A stretch of 64,000 nucleotides of DNA from Candidatus Acidulidesulfobacter diazotrophicus. Its GTDB lineage: Bacteria > SZUA-79 > Acidulodesulfobacterales > Acidulodesulfobacteraceae. The DNA lies in contig SGBB01000007.1 in NCBI GenBank assembly GCA_004195025.1, positions 1-64,000 on the forward strand. Direction: 5' to 3'. Shown in pieces: positions 16,470 through 49,334 of this stretch. Under the pieces are notes generated by a model, which was not told the DNA's origin, made no database searches, and was given only the letters and a program-made list of their open reading frames with translations. The position numbers and the translations under genes are program-made. The number at the start of each line of letters is the position of its first letter. Within the stretch, counting starts at the first letter, position 1.

Positions 16470-18047
16470 TTATTTTAAATTATTACTGCGGTATCTTTTT
16501 AATTTTTCAATCAAAGTCGTTCTGTTGATGCCTAATATTTTTGCGGCTTTATCTTTTACGCCGTTAGAAATTTCCAGGGCTTGTTTTATCAGATTTAATT
16601 CAAATTGTTCAACTTCGTTCTTTAAGTTTATAGGGTTGATACTTAAGTCTAATGTATTTATTAAATTATTATTATTATTATTATGATTATCTATTTTGCC
16701 GCCTATATTATTATTTGATGCTGAATTATCTATAGCAGTTTTAATTTCTGTATGTTTTTTTATATTATTTATGTTATTATCGTTTTGATTTAGATTTAAC
16801 CCTTTTTCTAAATAGTAAGTTTTATTAATATCGGAGTTTTTAAAATATTTATCCGGAATTTCATCTTCAGTTATAACACCTTTTTCGTTCAAAACAACAA
16901 GCATTTCTATAATATTTTCTAGTTCTCTGACATTGCCGAACCAGTCGTAGCTCAAAAGAATTTTTACTGCATTTTCAGATATACCGTAAACTAAATTATT
17001 CTTTGCGGAAGCTAATTTTTTCAAGAAATGATATATTAATAAAATTATATCAGATTTTCTTTCCCTTAAAGGTAAAATATATATAGGTATTACATTTATT
17101 CTGTAAAATAAATCTTCCCTGAATAAATTTTTTGCGACGAGTTCTTCTAAATTTTTATTCGTTGCGGTAATAATTCTGCAATCTACTTTTGTCGGTTTTA
17201 TAGAACCGACAGGTTCAATTTCATGTTCCTGTATTACCCTTAAAAGCTTTACCTGAAGGCTGAAATTCATATCGCCTATTTCGTCAAGAAAAATTGTGGA
17301 TTGATTCGCCAGCTCAAATCTACCGGGCTTATCGGCATAAGCTCCGGTAAAAGCGCCTTTTTTATAGCCGAATAATTCGCTTTCTAATAATTCTCCCGGC
17401 ATTGCTCCGCAATTTACGGGTATAATATTTTTTTTATTTCTTTTTGATTTCTGATGAATTAATCTTGCAACTAATTCTTTTCCTGTTCCTGATTCTCCTG
17501 TAATTAAAACATTGCTGTCTGAAAGCGCTATTTTTTTTATGCCGTCAATTATTTTTTTTAATTTATAAGAAATACCGTATATATTTTCTTCTAATTCTAT
17601 GTTAATATCATTTAACAGAGAAGATTCAATATCAATAAATGCACCCGTATTTTTTTTTTTGAAAATTTTTGAATCCACGAAATTTTCATATCGTATATTG
17701 ACGATATTTTGCGGATACAATGCGTGGTCAATTTTATGTTTTATAAGTTCTAGAATATTGTTTTCCGTTAAATTATTAATATCTTCAACATAAACAAAAA
17801 GATTTAAATTTCTTCTGGAGCCTATTTTTGCAATATAAGATATATTTGCTTCATTATATTCAAAAATAATATAAGTTGAATTTTGAAAATGTTTTGGGAG
17901 TTCATTACAATTTTTAAGCAGTTTTATTTTATCTGCAGATAAGGTTTTTAAAAGCGTTTTTTTAATGATAATCCCTGCTTCTTCAGTTTGCGTAATTATA
18001 TATGCAAGGTATTTAAAATTATTTTCTGTTTGACTGCCGCGCATCAT
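16470..18047 (-). CDS. sigma-54-dependent flagellar activator, FlrA/FleQ-like
   Basis: A 525-residue enhancer-binding protein. The first 150 residues form a degenerate receiver-like domain without the usual acidic pocket, as in FleQ/FlrA. The AAA+ domain has GESGTGKELVARLIHQ (about residue 181), the sigma-54 contact loop GAFTGA (about 235) and LDEIGDM. A Fis-type helix-turn-helix closes the protein (VKDKAAKILGINRTTLIEKL). An Asn-rich linker (about residues 420-475) separates the last two. In FleQ-type systems this protein starts the flagellar cascade; four sigma-54 promoters in this window are plausible direct or indirect targets. The divergent NYN gene begins only 22 bases away. Confidence 0.85.
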   Translation of the reverse strand: MMRGSQTENNFKYLAYIITQTEEAGIIIKKTLLKTLSADKIKLLKNCNELPKHFQNSTYIIFEYNEANISYIAKIGSRRNLNLFVYVEDINNLTENNILELIKHKIDHALYPQNIVNIRYENFVDSKIFKKKNTGAFIDIESSLLNDINIELEENIYGISYKLKKIIDGIKKIALSDSNVLITGESGTGKELVARLIHQKSKRNKKNIIPVNCGAMPGELLESELFGYKKGAFTGAYADKPGRFELANQSTIFLDEIGDMNFSLQVKLLRVIQEHEIEPVGSIKPTKVDCRIITATNKNLEELVAKNLFREDLFYRINVIPIYILPLRERKSDIILLIYHFLKKLASAKNNLVYGISENAVKILLSYDWFGNVRELENIIEMLVVLNEKGVITEDEIPDKYFKNSDINKTYYLEKGLNLNQNDNNINNIKKHTEIKTAIDNSASNNNIGGKIDNHNNNNNNLINTLDLSINPINLKNEVEQFELNLIKQALEISNGVKDKAAKILGINRTTLIEKLKRYRSNNLK

Positions 18048-18069
18048 TTTATTTATAATTAAAGGTATT

Positions 18070-18630
18070 ATGATTACAGTAATAATTGACGGATATAATT
18101 TTATATTTAATTCTTATTTTAAAATCAGCGTAAAATCTGAAAAACTACAAGAATTAAGAAATAACGCTATTATTTTACTATCAAGATATTATAATGTAAA
18201 AAAAAATAAAGTGATAGTGGTTTTTGACGGTTATCTGACTCAGGAACCTGCCGAGTCAAAATATAATATAGGTAATATTGAAGTAATTTATTCAAAAAGA
18301 GGGGAAAAAGCTGACGCTGTTATAATGCGCATAGCTGAAAAAATCAGGAATTCCTTAGTTGTTACAAATGATAATGAAATCAAGAGATATGTTGAAAGAT
18401 TAGATAACGTTTCCAGTATAAGCCCCGAGGACTTTAAACTTATAGTAAATAATATTATTATAAATGAAGAAGGGGGGAGTGACAAATATTTAAATGATTA
18501 CGATTTTACCGATGATGCAGGCGATGATTTTTGTAATGAATCCAAACATTCAAGCACTAAAAAGAAAGGTAACCCCCATAGACTTTCTAAAAAAGAAAGA
18601 TTGAAAATGAGAAAAATTAAAAAACTTTAA
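18070..18630 (+). CDS. NYN-domain (YacP/Rae1-like) ribonuclease
   Basis: A 186-residue protein of the PIN-like NYN superfamily. The strand VIIDGYNFIFNSYF holds the first acidic residue. VIVVFDGYLTQEP, GEKADAVIMRIAEK and SLVVTNDNEI supply the other conserved acids. The Lys-rich tail (HRLSKKERLKMRKIKKL) is typical of RNA- or ribosome-binding members. Bacterial YacP/Rae1 proteins cut mRNA on the ribosome, so an RNase role is the best guess. The gene points away from the FlrA-like gene with a 22-base gap, so at least one promoter must lie within the other gene. Confidence 0.8.
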   Translation: MITVIIDGYNFIFNSYFKISVKSEKLQELRNNAIILLSRYYNVKKNKVIVVFDGYLTQEPAESKYNIGNIEVIYSKRGEKADAVIMRIAEKIRNSLVVTNDNEIKRYVERLDNVSSISPEDFKLIVNNIIINEEGGSDKYLNDYDFTDDAGDDFCNESKHSSTKKKGNPHRLSKKERLKMRKIKKL

Positions 18631-19604: not shown

Positions 19605-20606
19605 TTATACAAGTTTTTCGCTTTCAGATTTGACAGTAATACTTATTTTGCCTTCATCTTCTAACCTTCTGGCAATTTTTAATATTTCATGCTGCACTTT
19701 TTCAACTTCAGAAAGTTTTTTTGGACCCATAGCCCCAAGATCGTCCACTATCATTTCCTGAGCTCTTTTTGAAACGTTGGCAAGAATTTTATCTTTAACT
19801 TCATCTGAAGCAGCTTTTAAAGCCATAATTATCTGGTCATGAGAAACTTCACGCAATACAATCTGCATAGATTTATCGTCAATTAAAGCAAGGTCGTCAA
19901 AAGTGAACATTAATTCCCTGATTTTTTCAGCCTCTTCCTTATCTAATTTTTCAATATCGTTCATTATAGGTTCTTCAATAGATTTGTCCATATTATTCAG
20001 GATTTCGGCGACTATTTTAACTCCTCCGACCAATTTGCTTTGGGTAGAGCCGGTAGATTTTAGTTGTTCCTGAAGAACTTCGTCCAGATCTTTTATCACC
20101 CCTGGAGGAATTCTTTCGAGCTTTGCTAATCTGAAAACAACCTGAGATCTTATAGATGAAGGAAGTAAACTTAAGACAGAAGCAGCTTGCATAGGTTCAA
20201 GATGTCCCAATATAAGCGCAATGGTCTGAGGATGTTCGTTCCTCACAAAATCGGCTATAACATGCGGGTCAAGCCATTTTAATGTTTCGAGACCTTCTTC
20301 TTCAATGGGGCCATGTAAATTATCTATTACTTTTTTAGCTTTTTCTGGATCAAGCGATTTTGCTATTAAATTTTTTACATAGTCATCAGCTTTAATAACT
20401 AATCCTACATTGCCGAAGTTTGAATTAAAATCTTTTAATACTAAATCCGAATCTTCTTTTGAAATAGGCGGTAATTGATTCATATATTTAGTTATTTTTT
20501 GAATTTCAACGAGATCTAATTTTCTAAAAATTTCAGAAGCAGCATCTTCACCAATTGAAACAAGGAATACAGCCGCTTTTTCAGCTCCGATGAATTTCTT
20601 AGTCAT
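19605..20606 (-). CDS. fliG: flagellar motor switch protein FliG
   Basis: FliG joins the MS-ring to the C-ring and contacts the stators to produce torque. The 333 residues show the FliG_N start (AEKAAVFLVSIGEDAASEIF), the middle EHPQTIALILGHLEP motif, and a C-terminal domain with MFTFDDLALIDDKSMQ and the charged torque helix IMALKAASDEVKDKI. It begins 2 bases after fliF, with an AAGGGA ribosome site overlapping the fliF end, indicating tight coupling. No low-complexity insert is present. Confidence 0.97.
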   Translation of the reverse strand: MTKKFIGAEKAAVFLVSIGEDAASEIFRKLDLVEIQKITKYMNQLPPISKEDSDLVLKDFNSNFGNVGLVIKADDYVKNLIAKSLDPEKAKKVIDNLHGPIEEEGLETLKWLDPHVIADFVRNEHPQTIALILGHLEPMQAASVLSLLPSSIRSQVVFRLAKLERIPPGVIKDLDEVLQEQLKSTGSTQSKLVGGVKIVAEILNNMDKSIEEPIMNDIEKLDKEEAEKIRELMFTFDDLALIDDKSMQIVLREVSHDQIIMALKAASDEVKDKILANVSKRAQEMIVDDLGAMGPKKLSEVEKVQHEILKIARRLEDEGKISITVKSESEKLV

Positions 20607-35964: not shown

Positions 35965-36966
35965 ATGGCTGATGTTTTATCTCAAGAAGAAGTAAATGCG
36001 CTGTTAAGGGGTATATCTTCAGGCGCTATAGAAGCTGAAAAAAAACCTGAACAAACAGGCGGGGTAAGGTCTTATGATTTGACATCTCAGGACAGGATAG
36101 TTCGCGGCCGTATGCCTACACTAGAAATTATAAACGAAAGATTTGCAAGACTTCTCAGAAATAATTTAACTTCAACATTGAGAAAAGTTGCCGAAGTAAC
36201 ATGGACTTCCGTTGATATGCAAAAATTCGGCGAATTTCTAAAAAATATACCGCTTCCGACAAGCCTTACAATTTTTAAAATGCCTCCGCTACGCGGATTT
36301 GGAATATTTGTTCTTGATGCGCGGCTTGTTTATAATCTTATAGATATTTTTTTTGGCGGCAATACCGATCTTCATGTGAAAGTTGAAGGCAGAGATTTTT
36401 CGCCTATAGAAAATAGATTGATAAAAAAAGTTATTGATATGGCATTTGCCGATATTAAAGAGGCATGGAAACCCGTCAGTCCCGTTGAGCTGGAATTTCA
36501 AAGAAGTGAAATTAACCCGCAGTTTGCTACTATCGTTACTCCTACCGAAGTAGTTATAGTAAACAGATTTGAAGTGGATATTGAAGGCGCTGTTTCAAGA
36601 TTTATGATTTGTCTGCCTTATTCAATGATTGAGCCTGTTAAAGAAAAATTATACAGCGGTTTTCAAAGCGAGCAATTAGAAGTAGATTCAAGATGGATAC
36701 AAAGGTTTAAAGAAAGACTGAAAGAATCTGATTTAAATATAAGAATTGAACTTGGCAGAACTGAAATTAAGACAAGAGATTTTTTAAATATAAAAAAAGG
36801 CGATGTTCTTGTTCTTGACAAACAAGTTATAGAACCTTTGGTTGTAAGAGTAGAAAATATACCGAAATACTTAGCTTATCCGGGCAAAATGCAAAATCAG
36901 CTTGCAGTAAAATTAATTTCATCTATTCCAATAGAAAAAGAGGGGTATTACGATGAGTCAAACTGA
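35965..36966 (+). CDS. fliM: flagellar motor switch protein FliM
   Basis: A C-ring protein that receives phosphorylated CheY. The N-terminal LSQEEVNALLRGISSG is the CheY-binding helix. The CheC-like middle domain (LRGFGIFVLDARLVYNLID, FFGG) and the C-terminal SpoA domain (IRIELGRTEIKTRDFLNIK) are complete in 333 residues. It overlaps fliN by 14 bases, implying translational coupling. A gap of 149 bases without visible sites separates it from fliL. Confidence 0.97.
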   Translation: MADVLSQEEVNALLRGISSGAIEAEKKPEQTGGVRSYDLTSQDRIVRGRMPTLEIINERFARLLRNNLTSTLRKVAEVTWTSVDMQKFGEFLKNIPLPTSLTIFKMPPLRGFGIFVLDARLVYNLIDIFFGGNTDLHVKVEGRDFSPIENRLIKKVIDMAFADIKEAWKPVSPVELEFQRSEINPQFATIVTPTEVVIVNRFEVDIEGAVSRFMICLPYSMIEPVKEKLYSGFQSEQLEVDSRWIQRFKERLKESDLNIRIELGRTEIKTRDFLNIKKGDVLVLDKQVIEPLVVRVENIPKYLAYPGKMQNQLAVKLISSIPIEKEGYYDESN

Positions 36967-40926: not shown

Positions 40927-42015
40927 ATGGCAGATAAATCGGAACAGACTGAACAGCCCACCCCTAAAAAAATACAGGACGCCAGAAAAAAAGGGCAGGT
41001 GATGAAATCAAGGGAAGTCAGTACTGCTTTTGCCTTAACGGTAATATTTATATATTTGTCATTTAATATAGGACATATCGGAAATATAATTGAAGGGAAA
41101 ATGGTTTACTTTTTTTCTAATGCTTCCGCCATAGAACTTACAAAGGCAGGCACTCTCAATGTTTTATACAATATTGTTTATACCGTTCTTTTTGCTATAC
41201 TGCCTTTAATAATAATTATTTTTTTAGCTTCTATAGCTTCAAATTTAGCGCAGGTAGGATTCATATTGACATTTGAACCGCTTATTCCTGATTTTAACAA
41301 GATAAATCCTATCACAGGTATTCAGAGATTTTTTTCGTTTCAATCGGTAAATGAATTTTTAAAATCATTTGTAAAATTTTTTATTATTATTTTAGTAGCC
41401 TATTTTTCAGCTATCGGCTATCTTCATAAATTATTTACTTTACAGTATGCCGATGCGGAAGAAAATATGATTTTTATTATGAAACTTTTATCCAAAGTTT
41501 TTTTTAATATTATTGCCGTTATGATAATTTTGAGCATAATAGATTTTTTTATTCAAAAATGGCAATATACTAAAAGTCTTATGATGAGCAAACAGGAAGT
41601 AAAAGATGAAATGAAACAGTATGAGGGAAATCCTCAAGTAAAAAATAAATTAAGAAAAATGCAAAGAGAAATATCGCGCAGAAAAATATTAAAAGAAGTT
41701 AAAGGCGCGCATGTCGTTATAACAAATCCTACGCATTTTGCAGTTGCGTTAAAATATGAAAACAAAAAACATAAAGCGCCGGTAGTTGTCGCAAAAGGAG
41801 CCGATAATATGGCATTTTTAATAAAAAAAATTGCCTCAGACAATGAAATCCCCGTTATTGAAAATAAATATATTGCAAGGTCTCTTTATGAAATATGCGA
41901 ACCGGGAGATTATATACCGGACGCTTTATATAAAGCTGTTGCTGAAATACTTGCCCATTTGTATTCAACAAATTTAAAATTTAAGAAAATTTGGAGTATG
42001 AACAATAATGGCTAA
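40927..42015 (+). CDS. flhB: flagellar export switch protein FlhB
   Basis: FlhB controls the switch from hook to filament export. The opening KSEQTEQPTPKKIQDARKKG is canonical. Four membrane helices follow, then the cytoplasmic domain with the self-cleavage motif NPTH (near residue 267; VVITNPTHFAVALKY). The enzyme is 362 residues and looks active. It overlaps flhA by 8 bases. A separate homologue of its C-terminal part is encoded at 58503. Confidence 0.97.
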   Translation: MADKSEQTEQPTPKKIQDARKKGQVMKSREVSTAFALTVIFIYLSFNIGHIGNIIEGKMVYFFSNASAIELTKAGTLNVLYNIVYTVLFAILPLIIIIFLASIASNLAQVGFILTFEPLIPDFNKINPITGIQRFFSFQSVNEFLKSFVKFFIIILVAYFSAIGYLHKLFTLQYADAEENMIFIMKLLSKVFFNIIAVMIILSIIDFFIQKWQYTKSLMMSKQEVKDEMKQYEGNPQVKNKLRKMQREISRRKILKEVKGAHVVITNPTHFAVALKYENKKHKAPVVVAKGADNMAFLIKKIASDNEIPVIENKYIARSLYEICEPGDYIPDALYKAVAEILAHLYSTNLKFKKIWSMNNNG

Positions 42016-44107
42016 GAATAATAGGGCTGCAGGCGATAATTTTATATTAAAGAATTCGGATATTATTCTTGCTTTGATGTTTTTTATGGTAATTATCCTT
42101 ATGGTTCTTCCTATAACCACTTGGATGCTTGATATTTTTCTTACTTTATCTATTTCTTTTTCTATTGTAGTTCTTTTAATTTCTATTTATGTTTTAAGAC
42201 CGCTTGAATTTTCGACATTTCCTACGATACTTTTATTTTCTACGGTATTTAGGCTGTCATTAGAAATAGCGGCTACAAGACTAATCTTGCTGTACGGATA
42301 TAAAGGAACCGATGCGGCAGGTATTGTCATACAGTCCTTCGGAAGTTTTATAGTAGGCGGGAATTATGCAGTCGGAATAGTCATCTTTATAATTTTTATA
42401 GTTATTAACTTTTTAGTCGTCACCAAAGGCGCGGGCAGGGTGGCTGAAGTTGCCGCAAGATTTACATTAGACGCTATGCCGGGAAAACAGATGTCAATAG
42501 ACGCAGAATTAAATTCCGGTCTCATAAACGATCAGGAAGCAAGGCAAAAAAGATCGGATATTATAAAAGAAGCTGATTTTTACGGGTCTATGGACGGTGC
42601 CAGTAAATTTGTCAGAGGCGATGTAATAGCTGCTATCGTTATTATTGTAATCAATATTATAGCAGGTCTTTTAATAGGTATTTTTCAGCACCATTTATCT
42701 TTAGCTAAAGCTGCCAATTATTATACATTGCTGACTGTCGGAGAAGGTCTTGTAGCGCAGATACCGGCTCTTATAGTTTCTACCGCAAGCGGTATCATTA
42801 TAACAAGGGCAAGCAGAGAAACTAATCTTTCAAAAGAATTTTCAAAACAGTTTTCTTCTTATCCCCGCGCTTTATACACTGCCGCAGGTATTTTATTCTT
42901 TTTCGGCGTTATTCCGGGACTTCCTCACTGGCCGTTTATTTTATTGGCTCTAATTGTTGCCGTTACAGCTTTTTTAATTTCCAAAGAAAACATCAGAAAA
43001 AAGATTGATATAGACAAAAAGGCTGTAGAAGAAAAGAAAGCAGTTCCTGAATCACAGATTATTGAAAGCGTTATGCAGGTTGATATGATGGAATTAGAAG
43101 TCGGATACGGACTGATTTCTTATGTAGATTCTTCAAGAAACGGAGAACTTCTTGAAAGAATAAAAGGTCTTAGAAAACAAATAGCGGCAGACCTTGGAAT
43201 GATTGTGCCGCCTATTCATATTAAAGATAATTTAGCTTTAAAACCTAATGAATATGTTATTTTAATAAAGGGGGTAGAAGTATCAAGATTTGAGATAATG
43301 CCGGCTAAATTTTTAGCTATGAACCCGGGTAATGCGACAGAAAATATTCCCGGAACGGTAACTAAAGAACCTGCGTTTAATCTGCCTGCATTATGGATTG
43401 ACGAAAACGAAAAGCAAAGAGCGCAATTGGCAGGCTGGACAGTTGTTGAAATTCCGGCTGTAATAGCAACCCATATTGTTGAAATAATAAAACAGAATGC
43501 AGCAGAACTGCTAACCCGGCAGGATACGCAAAAACTTCTTGATATATTATCGGCAAAATATCCAAAAGTTGTAGATGAACTCATACCTAATGTTTTATCT
43601 TTAAGCACTGTTCAGAAAATATTAGAAAATTTATTATCCGAAGGTATTCCGATAAAAGATATGCTTACTATTATTGAAACTTTGCACGATTACGGGAGTA
43701 ATATAAAAGACCCTCTATTGCTAACTGAATACGTAAGAAGCGCGCTAAAAAGGACAATTACTAAAACAATTTTAGATCAGGACGGGTCAATAAAAGTTAT
43801 AACGCTAGGCAAAAATTTTGAATCAACCATGCTTAATGAATATAAAAAAGCTAAAGAGCTTGGAGTTTATTCAGCAATTGAGCAGCCTGTCTATCAAAAG
43901 ATTATAGGCGTAGTCAAAGATCAAGCCAAAAAGGCTTTAGACGGAGGGCATACGCCCGTTATACTTACTTCGCCGGCTATAAGACTTTTTGTAAAAAATA
44001 TTTTAAAAGATATTATTCCGGGCATAGTCGTTGTTTCATCTGCAGAAATTGCTCCTAATATTAAATTGCAGTCTATAGGTAATATGGAGATAGATTATGC
44101 AAATTAA
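42008..44107 (+). CDS. flhA: flagellar export gate protein FlhA
   Basis: The largest export gate component, 699 residues. The membrane half has RPLEFSTFPTILLFSTVFRL followed by SLEIAATRLIL, and the FHIPEP-type signature region GRVAEVAARFTLDAMPGKQM. The cytoplasmic half contains the chaperone-docking domain (PALWIDENEKQRAQLAGW). The stop overlaps the flhF start by 11 bases. No low-complexity insert is present, in contrast to many neighbours. Confidence 0.97.
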   Translation: MAKNNRAAGDNFILKNSDIILALMFFMVIILMVLPITTWMLDIFLTLSISFSIVVLLISIYVLRPLEFSTFPTILLFSTVFRLSLEIAATRLILLYGYKGTDAAGIVIQSFGSFIVGGNYAVGIVIFIIFIVINFLVVTKGAGRVAEVAARFTLDAMPGKQMSIDAELNSGLINDQEARQKRSDIIKEADFYGSMDGASKFVRGDVIAAIVIIVINIIAGLLIGIFQHHLSLAKAANYYTLLTVGEGLVAQIPALIVSTASGIIITRASRETNLSKEFSKQFSSYPRALYTAAGILFFFGVIPGLPHWPFILLALIVAVTAFLISKENIRKKIDIDKKAVEEKKAVPESQIIESVMQVDMMELEVGYGLISYVDSSRNGELLERIKGLRKQIAADLGMIVPPIHIKDNLALKPNEYVILIKGVEVSRFEIMPAKFLAMNPGNATENIPGTVTKEPAFNLPALWIDENEKQRAQLAGWTVVEIPAVIATHIVEIIKQNAAELLTRQDTQKLLDILSAKYPKVVDELIPNVLSLSTVQKILENLLSEGIPIKDMLTIIETLHDYGSNIKDPLLLTEYVRSALKRTITKTILDQDGSIKVITLGKNFESTMLNEYKKAKELGVYSAIEQPVYQKIIGVVKDQAKKALDGGHTPVILTSPAIRLFVKNILKDIIPGIVVVSSAEIAPNIKLQSIGNMEIDYAN

Positions 44108-45293
44108 AAGATATGAAGTATTAGATATAAAAGAAGCTATTAAGCTTATAAAAAGAGACCTCGGAGAAGATGCCGTTATTATTTCAACAAGGCAGGTTAA
44201 TAAGTCCGAAGAATTCGGTTTTTTCGGTAAACCGTTTTTAGAAGTAGTGGCGGCAGTTGATTATAATGAAGAAATTTCTGTAAACGGCAAAGAAGACAAT
44301 GATAAAAAATTAAATTATGATTTAATAACACCGCTTTATGACGACATAAAATTTCTAAAAGATAACTTTGAAAGCATTGTGGAAGATAAAGTTATTTTTG
44401 TTTTAAATTCAAAGTTTGATGAAGTAAAATCTATACTTGACGAAATAAGATTTTCGGTAGATTCTTTAAAGAAAGAAAAATATAGCTCTAAAATAATAGA
44501 TGAAGAATTATTTTCATATTTAGACAGATTGGGTTTTGACAGAAGAATTTCCGTTAAATTAAATGATATTTTTTTTAAAGATCTTGTGCTTAAAAACTTT
44601 ACGCCAAATGAAAAAATAGAATATTTTTTAAAATTTTTTAAAAAATTAATTGAGCGCAGATTAGAAAAGAAAACCGCGTTGACATCCACTATAGACGGAA
44701 AACTGCTAATTTCTTTAACAGGCAATAACGGCGTCGGAAAAACATCAACAGCTGCAAAATTATGCGCAAAGTATATATTTGAAAAAAACAAACATGTTTC
44801 GCTTTGTTCTCTCGATATTTTAAAAGTAAGCAGCAATGAAGCATTAAAAAATTATGCTAAAAAATTAAAAATAGAGTTTGTGTCTATAAAAAATCCTGAA
44901 GAATTTAAATATTTTATATCAAACGCAGATTCGGATATTATAATTATTGATTCTTTTGGCGTAAACCACAATAATCTTTATCAATTGAATAATCTGGCTA
45001 AATTTTTTGATATTTATAAAGGCAAAATTAAGAATTCGCTTCTTTTGTCGGCTCAGACTAAATCTCATGATGCAATGAGAATTTATAAATCTTTTAATAA
45101 TAAAATAGGTTTAAATTCTTTAATTATAACCAAAGTTGACGAATCATACAGTATAGGAAATCTGGCAGGCATTTTTTTACAGTCTGACTTAACTATTGAT
45201 TATTTGACAAACGGCGAAAATGTTCCCGAAAATATTGAAGAAGCAAAATTAGATAATTTGTATAGTTTATTTTTTCCAAAGCCGGAAATTTGA
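44097..45293 (+). CDS. flhF: FlhF-like SRP-family GTPase with diverged motifs
   Basis: FlhF marks the site of flagellum assembly, often the pole. This 398-residue protein has the FlhF opening (MQIKRYEVLDIKEAIKLIKR, then DAVIISTRQV), a P-loop LTGNNGVGKTSTAAKLCAKY (about residues 207-226) and TKVDE for guanine recognition (about 345). Two catalytic motifs deviate: the DTYR-type motif reads DILK (about residue 240) and the DTAGR-type motif reads DSFGV (about 285). GTP binding may be kept while hydrolysis or dimer activation changes. It lies between flhA and flhG, as expected. Confidence 0.87.
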   Translation: MQIKRYEVLDIKEAIKLIKRDLGEDAVIISTRQVNKSEEFGFFGKPFLEVVAAVDYNEEISVNGKEDNDKKLNYDLITPLYDDIKFLKDNFESIVEDKVIFVLNSKFDEVKSILDEIRFSVDSLKKEKYSSKIIDEELFSYLDRLGFDRRISVKLNDIFFKDLVLKNFTPNEKIEYFLKFFKKLIERRLEKKTALTSTIDGKLLISLTGNNGVGKTSTAAKLCAKYIFEKNKHVSLCSLDILKVSSNEALKNYAKKLKIEFVSIKNPEEFKYFISNADSDIIIIDSFGVNHNNLYQLNNLAKFFDIYKGKIKNSLLLSAQTKSHDAMRIYKSFNNKIGLNSLIITKVDESYSIGNLAGIFLQSDLTIDYLTNGENVPENIEEAKLDNLYSLFFPKPEI

Positions 45294-45326: not shown

Positions 45327-45594
45327 CTGGATTCCTGCTTTCGCAGGAATGACACAAGGAAGGTAAACCGTTAAATTTTAGCTAAGTCATTCCTGCTTTT
45401 GCATGAATGACACAAGGAAGGTAAACCGTTAAATTTTAGCTAAGTCATTCCTGCTTTTGCATGAATGACACAAGGAAGGTAAACCGTTAAATTTTAGCTA
45501 ATTCATTCCTGCGAAAGCAGGAAAGTTCCGAAGATAGAAACGCACGCCGTTTCTATTAACGAGGCTATAAGCCGAGAGCGAAGCGGTCATTCAG
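45327..45594 (+). repeat. dispersed modular repeat with 58-bp tandem units and module B
   Basis: It begins with a hairpin (CTGGATTCCTGC/GCAGGAATGAC). A 58-base unit (GAATGACACAAGGAAGGTAA to the next hairpin arm) then starts at 45347, 45405 and 45463. A last hairpin (CATTCCTGC/GCAGGA) leads into module B in reverse orientation, ending GCGGTCATTCAG. No terminal inverted repeats were found. It fills most of the 396-base gap between flhF and flhG; the last 95 bases are A+T-rich leader. Confidence 0.85.
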
Positions 45595-45689: not shown

Positions 45690-46520
45690 ATGAAAAATAG
45701 AAAACGGTTAAATCAGACAAAAATTATATCTGTTACGAGCGGAAAGGGCGGAGTAGGTAAAACTAATCTCGTTTGTAATCTTGCCTATTGTTTTGCTTCT
45801 ATGGGTAAAAAAGTGATGATAATGGATGCAGATTTAAGTCTTGGAAATGTTTCCGTTGTTTTAGGGCTTGCACCTAAGTATAATATATCTAACGTATTAT
45901 ACGGAGATAAGCAGTTGAAAGATATTATTATTTCTGACAAAAACGGTATTTTAGTTTTGCCTGCTTCTTCAGGCATACCGGAATTATCTAATTTGACGGA
46001 AATGCAAAAAATGACATTAATGACAAGATTCGGCGATTTGCTTTCGGATATTGACATGCTGCTTATTGATACAGGAGCGGGTATATCGTCAAATGTAATC
46101 TATTTTAATCTTGCCGCTGGCGAGATAATGGTAGTAATAACTCCAGAACCCACATCAATAACCGATGCATATGCTCTTATAAAAGTAATGAGCACTAAAC
46201 ATGGACAGAAGAATTTTTCTATCATTTTAAATATGGCAAAAAATGAAAAAGAAGCTAAAAGCATATATAAACACTTAAGTATTGTTGCCGATAAATTTCT
46301 TAAGGTTTCTTTAAGCTATGCAGGATTTATATTATATGACGACAATATTTCTAAATCCGTTATTATGCAAAAAACCGCAATGGAACTTTATCCTGAATCA
46401 AAATCGGCGTCATGCTTTAAAAAATTGGCTTATGATATAATTTCTAAAAATGAAAATGATTATTCAGACGGAAATTTGCAATTTTTTTTTAATAATCTTT
46501 TTAAAAATGAAAGAAATTAA
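45690..46520 (+). CDS. flhG: MinD-like ATPase FlhG/FleN
   Basis: FlhG limits flagellar number and partners FlhF. The deviant Walker A is SVTSGKGGVGKTNLVCNLAY near residue 15, followed by DADLSLGNVSVVLGL and LLIDTGAGIS. It is 276 residues long. In well-studied FlhG proteins an N-terminal helix with the motif DQAxxLR stimulates FlhF GTPase; here only MKNRKRLNQTK precedes the first strand, and no such motif is seen. No ribosome site is obvious. It is followed by fliA. Confidence 0.9.
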   Translation: MKNRKRLNQTKIISVTSGKGGVGKTNLVCNLAYCFASMGKKVMIMDADLSLGNVSVVLGLAPKYNISNVLYGDKQLKDIIISDKNGILVLPASSGIPELSNLTEMQKMTLMTRFGDLLSDIDMLLIDTGAGISSNVIYFNLAAGEIMVVITPEPTSITDAYALIKVMSTKHGQKNFSIILNMAKNEKEAKSIYKHLSIVADKFLKVSLSYAGFILYDDNISKSVIMQKTAMELYPESKSASCFKKLAYDIISKNENDYSDGNLQFFFNNLFKNERN

Positions 46521-46537
46521 AATATATTTTATCTTAT

Positions 46538-47254
46538 ATGATTATGATTAAATTAGACGATAAAGCAAAAAAACTTATAGAAGAAAACTTTAAATTAGTC
46601 AATAGCGTTGTCAATTTTATGACACTTAAATATCATGGGATTGTTGACAGAGACGATCTTATTGAATTTGGCATTGAAGGATTAATTGACGCCTCGGTAA
46701 AATATGACCATTCCAAAAACGAAAACTTTAAACAATATGCCGTATCAAGAATTAAGGGTTCAATACTTGATGAAATAAGAAAATTAGACTACTTGACAAG
46801 AAATGCGAGAGAAGCATCAAATAAACTTGAAAAAATTTATACACATCTAGAACAAAAATTGGGCAGAATTCCCGAGGATTTTGAAGCAGCCGAAGAACTC
46901 GGTATAAATTTAAATGAATTCAACGAGTTAATGTATAAAATCAGAGGTTCTTCTTTTATTTCCAATATGGATTTTACAGGAGCGCCGAAAATAGGCAATG
47001 AAAATTTAGAGACAATAGAAAGCAGTGACCCTGCAGCCTATGAAAATCTTATCGTTAATGAGAAAGAGAAAATTTTAAAAAAATATATTGATAATTTAGA
47101 CGATATTGAAAAGAATGTATTAATGATGTATTATTATGATGAGCTTACTTTAAAAAATATCGGAAAAATTCTTAATTTGACCGAATCAAGAATATGTCAG
47201 ATACATTCAAAAGCAATATTAAAATTAAGAACACAATTAAAATCAAATGAATAA
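46538..47254 (+). CDS. fliA: flagellar sigma factor FliA (sigma-28)
   Basis: A 238-residue sigma-70-family protein of the FliA/WhiG group. Region 2 is seen in DRDDLIEFGIEGLIDASVKY and FKQYAVSRIKGSILDEIRKLD, region 3 in NKLEKIYTHLEQKLGRIPED, and region 4 in NLTESRICQIHSKAILKLR. It would transcribe late genes such as flagellin, none of which is in the window. It overlaps the HEAT-repeat gene by 8 bases. An anti-sigma factor gene (flgM) was not found. Confidence 0.95.
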   Translation: MIMIKLDDKAKKLIEENFKLVNSVVNFMTLKYHGIVDRDDLIEFGIEGLIDASVKYDHSKNENFKQYAVSRIKGSILDEIRKLDYLTRNAREASNKLEKIYTHLEQKLGRIPEDFEAAEELGINLNEFNELMYKIRGSSFISNMDFTGAPKIGNENLETIESSDPAAYENLIVNEKEKILKKYIDNLDDIEKNVLMMYYYDELTLKNIGKILNLTESRICQIHSKAILKLRTQLKSNE

Positions 47255-49334
47255 TATATTAGAAAAAATCAGTAAAATATCTTTAGAAAACAAATTTGAA
47301 TTAATTTCAGAAATTGATAAAATACTTGAGCGTGATAACGAAGATGAATTAAATCAATTGACTGGATTATTTGACATCAATAATAATGCCGTTACAGAGA
47401 TTGTATTTAATGCGTTGTCGGGAACCCCCGGTTCTTTATTATTAAATAATATTTTATTTAAAATAATTACGGGAAATTATAATGTTAAAATGCGTTCTAA
47501 CGCTTTTAATATTATTAAAAATAAAGCAAAAATCAACGGAAATTTTTTAATAGATTATTGCGGCAATACCGATATAAAATATAAAATGTTTTTATCTGAA
47601 TTATTAAGATTCGGTAATTTTACCCCCCGCAGCCTTCCTTCAGTTTGTCTAAGAAAATTTTGCGATGACGAAAATGAAATAGTCAGAGCAAATGCCGTAG
47701 AGTCTGTAGGTTTTTTAAAACTGAAACTTGTTCAAACATTAAAAAAAGCTTTAATAAACGGCACGTTTTTAGTTAAAGCTTCCGCAATATTTTCTCTGGG
47801 AGAATTAAAAATAAAATCAACTACCGCAGATCTTAAATATGCGTTCTGGAGCAATAAAGACAATGTTATAAGAAAATTAATAATTGATTCTATAGCTAAA
47901 ATAGACGGTGAAACAGGACTTGATTTTTTAATAGATATTGCAAGTTTAGATTCTGGAAACAAAAGAATTGATAAAATTTATTTGATTAAAAATATTTATA
48001 GAATATATTGCGAAAATTATAAAAATAAAAAAATACAAAATTATATTATAAAAAAAATACAAAATATAAACGCAAAAATAAATATTTTAAAATTAGAATT
48101 TTATGATGATAAATTAACCAAAGAAGCAATTTTATTTTATTTTTCTTTATCTAACCCAAAGAAATCTATTAAAATTTTTAATTTTTTAATGGAGTATCTC
48201 AATAAAAATTTAATAACTGCAGACAATAAAGAATATAAATATATTAAAGAATCTCTAAGAAAAGTTTCTTATCCTGTGTATATAAAAAAATATTTGGAAT
48301 CTATAGGCTTTTCTTTTGAAACAAAGATCGCATCTTCAGGTATTTTTTTTAATTCTTACTCCATTTTGATTGAAATTTTGTCGGAAAATAGAAATTTCAA
48401 CGAACTGTCGAAGCTTTTAAATTATTATAAAAATAAGAAAATGCCTGTTGAATTAAAAATTGCTTTGCTTAATTCATCTGCCTCTATAATTCATTACGGC
48501 GCTCCGAAACTTTCAAAATCAGTATTAAAAAATGCTTTGTTTTTATTAGATGACGTCAGCGGAGATGTTAGAAAAGCTGCTGCAGATTTAATAGGTCAAT
48601 CAAAAAATATTAATTATACAAAAAATATTTACAATAAAGCAATAAACGAAAATTATTTAGATGTCTTAGATTCTTATATAAAAAATATTGTAAATTTAAG
48701 CAATAATAATAAAACTTATTTTAATTTTTTTGTAAATAATCTTAATTCAAATAATATTAAAATTATTGAAATATCGCTGCGTATTATTAAAAAATTTAAA
48801 ATATCTTTAAATAAACCTTTAAATAAAAAAGACACCGCAAATATATATGAGAAATTAAAAAAATTGTCGGGTTTCAAATCCGATAAGATTAAAATATTGC
48901 TCGCGTCGGTCATAGGTAATCTTTCAAACAGTATCTTAGGTATGCTTCAGTATAAGGATGTGTTCTATGATATTTTAATTGATTTGCTTAAAAATAATAA
49001 CAGCGAAGAAATAAAATTTAATTCTTTAGAGTCATTGCTAAAATCAGGTTTTAAAGATTCTAACGTATTTTTTGAAACTATACAGCCACAAAACCGTTCA
49101 AATATGTTCAAATTTAAAGTTATTGAACTTATCGGAAGACTAAAAGATGAAAAAAGTTTTGATAAATTAGTCGACTTTTTGCATAACTCCGATGATATTT
49201 TAATAAAAATAAGTATTTTAAAATCATTATATATTGTTGACGGGATAAGATCAAAATCCGTCATAAAAAATTATTTAACCGATAACAATGAAGATTTAAG
49301 AAACCTTGCAAAAGAGTTAATTGAATCTGATTAA
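47247..49334 (+). CDS. HEAT-repeat protein translationally coupled to fliA
   Basis: A 695-residue helical repeat protein without signal or membrane segment. HEAT/PBS-lyase-like units are visible, e.g. DDENEIVRANAVESVGFLKL, FLVKASAIFSLGELK, DDVSGDVRKAAADLIGQS and SNKDNVIRKLIIDSIAKI (last read as WSNKDNVIRKLIIDSIAKI). Such proteins are binding scaffolds. Its start overlaps the fliA stop by 8 bases, so it is made together with the sigma factor and stands directly before cheR. A role in motility or chemotaxis is therefore likely but unknown. A 31-base copy of its 3' end lies downstream. Confidence 0.72.
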   Translation: MNNILEKISKISLENKFELISEIDKILERDNEDELNQLTGLFDINNNAVTEIVFNALSGTPGSLLLNNILFKIITGNYNVKMRSNAFNIIKNKAKINGNFLIDYCGNTDIKYKMFLSELLRFGNFTPRSLPSVCLRKFCDDENEIVRANAVESVGFLKLKLVQTLKKALINGTFLVKASAIFSLGELKIKSTTADLKYAFWSNKDNVIRKLIIDSIAKIDGETGLDFLIDIASLDSGNKRIDKIYLIKNIYRIYCENYKNKKIQNYIIKKIQNINAKINILKLEFYDDKLTKEAILFYFSLSNPKKSIKIFNFLMEYLNKNLITADNKEYKYIKESLRKVSYPVYIKKYLESIGFSFETKIASSGIFFNSYSILIEILSENRNFNELSKLLNYYKNKKMPVELKIALLNSSASIIHYGAPKLSKSVLKNALFLLDDVSGDVRKAAADLIGQSKNINYTKNIYNKAINENYLDVLDSYIKNIVNLSNNNKTYFNFFVNNLNSNNIKIIEISLRIIKKFKISLNKPLNKKDTANIYEKLKKLSGFKSDKIKILLASVIGNLSNSILGMLQYKDVFYDILIDLLKNNNSEEIKFNSLESLLKSGFKDSNVFFETIQPQNRSNMFKFKVIELIGRLKDEKSFDKLVDFLHNSDDILIKISILKSLYIVDGIRSKSVIKNYLTDNNEDLRNLAKELIESD

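Follow-up and report, generated by a model that had tools for sequence, protein, structure and literature searches.

The flagellar protein FlhF encoded in a 64,000-nucleotide stretch of Candidatus Acidulidesulfobacter diazotrophicus (assembly GCA_004195025.1, contig SGBB01000007.1, positions 1 to 64,000; hereafter the window) appears to be a true FlhF that has turned into a hydrolysis-impaired, GTP-holding adaptor for FliG, a reading to which we assign a probability of roughly 0.6. In this protein and its relatives in the clade, the main GTP-binding residues are fixed and several residues implicated in hydrolysis are replaced. The adjoining FlhG, moreover, lacks the N-terminal helix described as completing the FlhF active site, and the same link between the two losses recurs among FlhF/FlhG pairs outside the clade.

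Altered GTPase motifs in FlhF

Judged from its sequence, the open reading frame (ORF) at 44097-45293 is an FlhF by descent and plan that lacks several sequence features of an active signal recognition particle (SRP) GTPase. Its top NCBIfam match is FlhF (TIGR03499), which starts at residue 1 and scores 142.1 bits, under the curated cutoff of 174.15 that none of the 30 genomes of the order passed; the Pfam SRP54 GTPase domain (PF00448) was matched with 99.9 bits. In an AF2 model (mean pLDDT 78; G domain mostly >85), a FliG-interaction domain (FID) is followed by an NG domain, and the top three Foldseek matches in the PDB were all FlhF NG structures (8r9r, E 7e-17; 2px3, E 2e-16; and 2px0, best first). 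The gene order flhA-flhF-flhG-fliA is that of an FlhF locus, and the adjoining flhG encodes a MinD-like ATPase with a Walker A motif, which places it in the FlhG/FleN group. When the genome (98.3% complete) was searched with PF00448, three SRP-type GTPases were recovered, namely FtsY, Ffh, and this FlhF; a second, canonical flhF, which would have undercut the initial annotation, was not found in this assembly. A scan of viral contigs for FlhF relatives likewise returned none.

The initial annotation had read from this frame an altered G2 motif (DILK) and an altered G3 motif (DSFGV) next to a preserved P-loop and TKVD. All four readings were confirmed (the P-loop as GNNGVGKTS, the last motif as TKVDES), and 7/7 genomes of the genus carry G2 as D-I-[LF]-K together with DSFGV. 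The window FlhF thus keeps the P-loop, the G2 Asp, the G3 Asp, and TKVDE (Table 1). The replaced residues were compared with those of 102 FlhFs from outside the clade whose FlhG keeps the DQA motif (hereafter ordinary FlhFs). The G2 Arg, which is Lys in the window protein, is Arg in 99/102 ordinary FlhFs, and the G5 Gln, here Glu, is Gln in 102/102. The Arg of DTAGR is Arg in just 72/102 and absent in 30/102, and its replacement by Val is therefore weak evidence when taken alone. Similarly, the G2 Thr occurs in only 75/102, and its replacement by Ile was rejected as a sign of inactivity because Ffh of the same genome (DIYRPAAILQL / DTAGR) carries Ile there. In both this Ffh and FtsY of the same genome (DTFRAAGKEQ / DTAGR), the G2 Arg, the Gln, and the latch Arg missing from FlhF are all present. 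The telling losses in the sequence are those of the G2 Arg, the G2-helix Gln, and the G5 Gln; the overall odds do not depend on the Thr-to-Ile argument but on the losses of the Arg, the Gln, and the FlhG helix. The segment VNHNN after G3 was also considered as a new catalytic motif and rejected, as its His aligns with a His present in ordinary FlhFs such as those reading DTAGRSHRN.

In SRP GTPases, the G2 Asp is described as holding the attacking water, the G2 Arg as contacting the gamma-phosphate, the G2 Gln (Ffh Gln144) as contacting the beta-phosphate and Mg, and the DTAGR Arg as a latch (PMC517823). According to the same report, FtsY in which either the G2 Arg or the DTAGR Arg has been replaced still enters a stable complex, but hydrolysis is not triggered. 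In Vibrio alginolyticus, FlhF R334A is reported to have no GTPase activity and yet to show normal polar localization and flagella (PMC6092412). Given these residue roles and mutants, GTP binding without efficient hydrolysis would therefore be expected of the clade FlhF.

The clade was represented by 30 genomes (listed sizes 0.9-3.0 Mb), the same set serving as the sample of family, order, and phylum. FlhA was found in 23 of them and a G-domain FlhF in 22, all among those 23; the FlhA-bearing genome without one (G021) has a partial FlhA at a contig end. Two genomes carry two such FlhFs, giving 24 sequences, and removal of one partial sequence and one in a truncated locus left the 22 full FlhFs to which the clade counts refer. 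In 22/22 of these proteins, Lys takes the place of the G2 Arg, Thr or Ala that of the G2 Gln (Gln in 0/22), and Val that of the G3 Arg, so that the G2 Arg and following Gln of an active GTPase are absent throughout. In the 15 FlhFs from outside the genus, G2 reads D[SYFV][LS]K and G3 reads DTFAV, that is, the Gly of DxxG has become Ala (DTFA) where the seven of the genus keep DSFG. At G5, 20 sequences have Glu and 2 have Gly in place of Gln. Fixed in 22/22, by comparison, are the P-loop G, K, and T, the G2 Asp, the G3 Asp, and the G4 K, D, and E, and the guanine-nucleotide binding motifs G1 and G4 are present in every sequence. A sequencing or frameshift error was ruled out, as the altered motifs are conserved across the clade. 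Among the seven sequences of the genus, the ratio of nonsynonymous to synonymous substitution (dN/dS) in the FID, the linker/N region, and the G domain was 0.002, 0.071, and 0.041, respectively; the G domain is under purifying selection. The low ratio and the clade-fixed motifs therefore indicate that the altered state of the G domain is being preserved. If the clade is Candidatus Acidulodesulfobacteriota / SZUA-79, it belongs to an order in which transcripts of fliC and fliD are reported to rank with the most abundant (PMC6776010).

Two further observations concern individual clade genomes. In a 99% complete genome (G027), a 132-codon FlhF frame is reduced to FID and linker (L026:1492-1890 on contig G027:C17; also L265). 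The frame apparently overlaps an intact flhG, which is followed by a fliA homolog (54% identical), and the sigma-54 activator and NYN gene of the window (16470-18630) have homologs upstream of it. An FlhF G domain was not found elsewhere in this genome, and neither FlhA nor FliG was detected in it. Two other bins each hold two flhA-flhF loci (G012:C41 and C76; G017:C124 and C153; contamination 3% each), which represent either two flagellar systems or mixed bins.

Loss of the FlhG helix within and outside the clade

The N-terminal DQAxxLR helix of FlhG is described as supplying a Gln that completes the FlhF active site (PMC12826062). The window FlhG has nine residues before its MinD core, and a DQA-like motif before Walker A was absent in 25/25 clade FlhG rows. 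This loss is a paired change that goes beyond what the initial annotation had claimed. Transfer of the helix to another protein was considered and rejected: a strict DNA pattern for DQAxxLR had 0 sites in the 2.46-Mb assembly, although a diverged helix would be missed and a reversed control pattern also had 0 sites, such patterns being rare in an AT-rich genome (G+C in the window is 25-31% per 8 kb). The best PDB match of the window FlhG was 5j1j, the Pseudomonas FleN, which is reported to be without DQAxxLR (PMC12713375); loss of the helix from FlhG is by itself already known.

FlhF/FlhG pairs were next surveyed outside the clade. Set 1 comprised 80 named contigs found by FlhA and gave 70 pairs; set 2 comprised 120 regions downstream of flhA from many families, among the matches listed and skipping those with too little contig downstream, and gave 91, for a total of 161. 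No two of the outside FlhFs were ≥90% identical over 250 residues. Each FlhF was scored at 14 canonical motif positions and called degenerate at a score ≤11; when the score was set, the set 1 motifs and the set 2 FlhF motifs had already been seen, but set 2 had yet to be paired with FlhG N-termini. Among FlhFs scoring ≤11, the FlhG had no DQA in 24/24 cases, while among those with higher scores it had none in 35/137 and kept it in 102 (Fisher 9e-13). A simpler definition of an impaired FlhF gave 18/21 without DQA versus 43/140 of the others (2e-6); the two "weak" helices (L181 and L195) were counted as DQA in the 14-position counts and as no DQA in the main table for the simpler definition. 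None of the 102 pairs with a DQA-type FlhG contained a strongly degraded FlhF, and the clade (score 9-11, no DQA) fits the pattern. Six DQA-less FlhGs beside an intact or mildly changed FlhF (L049, L113, L174, L184, L188, and L258) resemble variant helices by eye, and the class of intact FlhF without DQA may therefore be overstated.

Conservation of the FID did not differ with the state of the helix, the ten most conserved positions being matched at 7.7 with DQA versus 8.0 without (p 0.58); FlhF therefore appears to remain selected even as its catalytic centre decays. Matches at non-motif residues also dropped in FlhFs without DQA, by 0.6/14 when the columns were picked on all rows and by 2.9/14 when they were picked on DQA rows. 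The motif effect survived regression on these columns (p 1e-6 and 0.02, respectively).

To assess shared ancestry, quick trees, both poorly supported at depth, were built from the FlhG core (157 rows; 11/161 pairs with FlhG matches <100 bits left out) and from FlhA (71 rows). By parsimony, the FlhG tree requires 23 changes in the DQA state and 13 in degeneration, compared with 14 and 7 on the FlhA tree. A dependent two-trait model (L104 left out) beat the independent one on the FlhG tree (likelihood ratio, LR, 36.6, p 2e-7; without the clade, LR 34.5), in set 2 alone (LR 18.4, p 0.001), and on the FlhA tree (LR 20.2, p 5e-4). At score cutoffs of 9, 10, and 12, the p values were 5e-4, 1e-5, and 3e-7. 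The modelled rate of degeneration with DQA present was near zero. Some groups without DQA extend beyond the degenerate FlhFs they include (L052/L054/L058; L043/L071/L038/L066), which suggests that the helix would be lost first and that catalysis would decay later. These results would be compatible with a general one-way rule, which we hold to be about as probable as not: once the co-catalytic helix of FlhG is lost, the hydrolytic centre of FlhF would be free to decay while the FID remains selected, and a cycling switch would become a static adaptor. The parsimony counts would correspond to at least 7 such changes on the FlhA tree and at least 13 on the FlhG tree, including the whole phylum studied here and a lineage whose FlhF lacks a P-loop.

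Several unusual pairs were noted in the survey. In four records (L053, L064, L069, and L078), the FlhF P-loop itself is destroyed (S....GQ[ST]) beside a DQA-less FlhG; three of them are labelled Bacteriovoracaceae, the fourth groups with them, and nucleotide binding itself may be lost in these FlhFs. Eight FlhGs (L062, L076, L079, L085, L094, L101, L104, and L110) have no intact Walker A (no GK[ST]) and yet keep DQAxxL; the FlhFs beside them have intact motifs, as if FlhG had been reduced to an activator. In L219 and L220, an FlhF without a detectable FID and with the G2 Arg-to-Lys replacement stands beside a DQA-type FlhG, making both exceptions to the simpler rule. Finally, in L034:8024-9393 and in L148 (minus strand), FlhF is split into an FID frame and an overlapping NG frame, reflecting either a frameshift error or a real two-piece FlhF.

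A probable hydrolysis-impaired adaptor and its alternatives

As we picture it, the N-terminal FID would bind FliG, and the NG domain would hold GTP-Mg and probably still pair or dock at the assembly site. With Lys and Ala in G2, Val in G3, and Glu in G5, the composite active site would no longer fire efficiently, and the FlhG partner is without the helix that provides the completing Gln. Placement of the first ring parts would then rely on binding alone, leaving FlhG to act through FliM and transcription. The initial annotation had proposed a fixed landmark that binds GTP without hydrolysis, a reading that is partly supported. The hydrolysis-dead R334A protein, with its normal localization and flagella, and the stable but silent FtsY mutants are precedents for it. 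As to the landmark part, Shewanella FlhF is described as a FliG adaptor docking on the landmark HubP and not as the landmark itself (PMC11236974). Retained binding residues, replaced catalytic ones, and the missing FlhG helix are consistent with the proposed lack of hydrolysis, which would have to be softened if slow turnover persists.

A number of points weigh against a hydrolysis-impaired FlhF or against the coupling of the two losses. The G2 Asp is still present and the Arg position is occupied by Lys, so that weak hydrolysis may persist. Three outside FlhFs that are impaired by the G2 Arg-to-Lys replacement stand beside a DQA-type FlhG. When only well-supported branches were used, sign tests on independent pairs were not significant with the 6 or 7 pairs available in each; of 6 pairs on the FlhG tree, about 2.2 pointed the same way and 0 the opposite way, and the FlhA tree gave 2.8 and 0 of 6. 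Under the simpler definition of impairment, the dependent model was supported on the FlhG tree (p 0.001) but not on the FlhA tree (p 0.68). Moreover, Vibrio FlhF G380A belongs to a set of twelve reduced-function mutants, all but E440K reported as insoluble (PMC6092412). Judged from the D377/G380 spacing, G380 is the G3 Gly; Ala occurs naturally at this position in 15/22 clade members, and rules derived from Vibrio may therefore not transfer.

Given the residues that remain, the protein could instead be a working GTPase re-tuned to a slower cycle, in which Asp240 keeps the water in place, Lys243 takes over from the arginine finger, and some other factor does the work of the FlhG helix. Invariance of Asp240 and Lys243 (22/22), the intact G4 and P-loop, purifying selection across the G domain, and the three FlhFs with the same G2 replacement next to a DQA-type FlhG are all compatible with this possibility. 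We nevertheless consider it doubtful, as every clade member has Thr or Ala at the position of Ffh Gln144, the G5 Gln is lost, and the co-catalytic helix has no strict match in the genome. It is less probable again that the nucleotide state conveys nothing, with the G domain serving as a structural or GDP-locked scaffold and FlhF acting only through its FID and NG surface. Binding of HubP by the NG domain is reported to be nucleotide-independent in Shewanella (PMC11236974), the four FlhFs without a P-loop all face a DQA-less FlhG, and one clade genome keeps only the FID part. A pure scaffold, however, would not need the main nucleotide-binding residues that are fixed in the clade, and the FID-only genome, without detected FlhA or FliG, is silent on working flagella. 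Decay of the gene toward loss, with no particular function, would account for the truncated FlhF in one genus of the phylum and for motif scores below canonical, but is hardly credible with a G-domain dN/dS of 0.041 within the genus and a G-domain FlhF in 22/23 FlhA-bearing genomes. The hydrolysis-impaired adaptor is accordingly the reading we prefer.

Genomic setting and comparison with known systems

Coordinates of the motifs and of the flagellar genes considered here are collected in Table 1. The FliM N-terminus is included because this region is reported to bind FlhG in other species (PMC11236974). Between flhF and flhG (45331-45523), three direct repeat copies at 58-base spacing were noted; the core is palindromic, and the ends form a perfect inverted pair of 21 bases. 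A 695-aa HEAT-repeat protein is encoded directly 3' of fliA, ahead of cheR (47247-49334).

Table 1. FlhF motifs and associated flagellar genes, in window positions
Feature	Coordinates	Strand	Remarks
flhF, GTPase-motif variant	44097..45293	+	398 aa ORF
FID, residues 1-57	44097..44267	+	38/57 positions invariant in 22 clade sequences; FID as defined in PMC11236974
P-loop GNNGVGKT, residues 209-216	44721..44744	+	kept
G2 DILK, residues 240-243	44814..44825	+	replaces DTxR
G2-helix Ala249	44841..44843	+	replaces Gln; Gln in 102/102 FlhFs paired with DQA-type FlhG
G3 DSFGV, residues 285-289	44949..44963	+	replaces DTAGR
G4 TKVDE, residues 345-349	45129..45143	+	kept
G5 Gly373-Glu374	45213..45218	+	Glu replaces usual Gln
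flhA	42008..44107	+	overlaps flhF start
flhG (MinD-like ATPase)	45690..46520	+	276 aa; no N-terminal DQAxxLR enhancer helix; N-terminus MKNRKRLNQTKIISVTSGKGGVGKT
fliA (sigma-28)	46538..47254	+	
fliG	19605..20606	-	expected FID partner
fliM	35965..36966	+	N-terminus MADVLSQEEVNALL

A hydrolysis-dead laboratory mutant can still place flagella, which raises the question of what GTP hydrolysis by FlhF is for. Recurrence of the paired FlhF/FlhG change in other bacteria suggests that the switch can lose its timer and still serve in docking. Lineages with natural catalytic losses and no activating helix are ready tests of the GTPase cycle versus FliG docking alone, and presence or absence of the FlhG helix offers a sequence rule for predicting which FlhFs still cycle. 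Our literature search found no report of a natural GTPase-impaired FlhF or of a coevolutionary link between FlhF and FlhG.

The window FlhF shares the NG fold, the FID-plus-NG plan, the P-loop, and G4 with the FlhFs of Bacillus subtilis (2px0, 2px3, and 3syn) and Shewanella putrefaciens (8r9r); it differs from them in the replaced G2 Arg, G2 Gln, G3 Arg, and G5 Gln and in an FlhG without DQAxxLR. Loss of the putative catalytic arginine is shared with the engineered R334A of V. alginolyticus and R251G of Pseudomonas aeruginosa. Those proteins, however, are laboratory point mutants that are otherwise normal, whereas in the clade several residues have changed together, naturally, and across a phylum. 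Pseudomonas FleN, like the window FlhG, is an FlhG homolog without DQAxxLR, but P. aeruginosa FlhF has been assayed as an active GTPase (PMC12713375), whereas the window FlhF is altered as well. A further parallel is offered by the class II mutants of FtsY, in which changes in the G2 loop or at the DTAGR Arg allow the complex with Ffh to form without activation of hydrolysis (PMC517823); these act in a heterodimer and are laboratory mutants with Arg changed to Ala, compared with Lys or Val in the clade FlhF.

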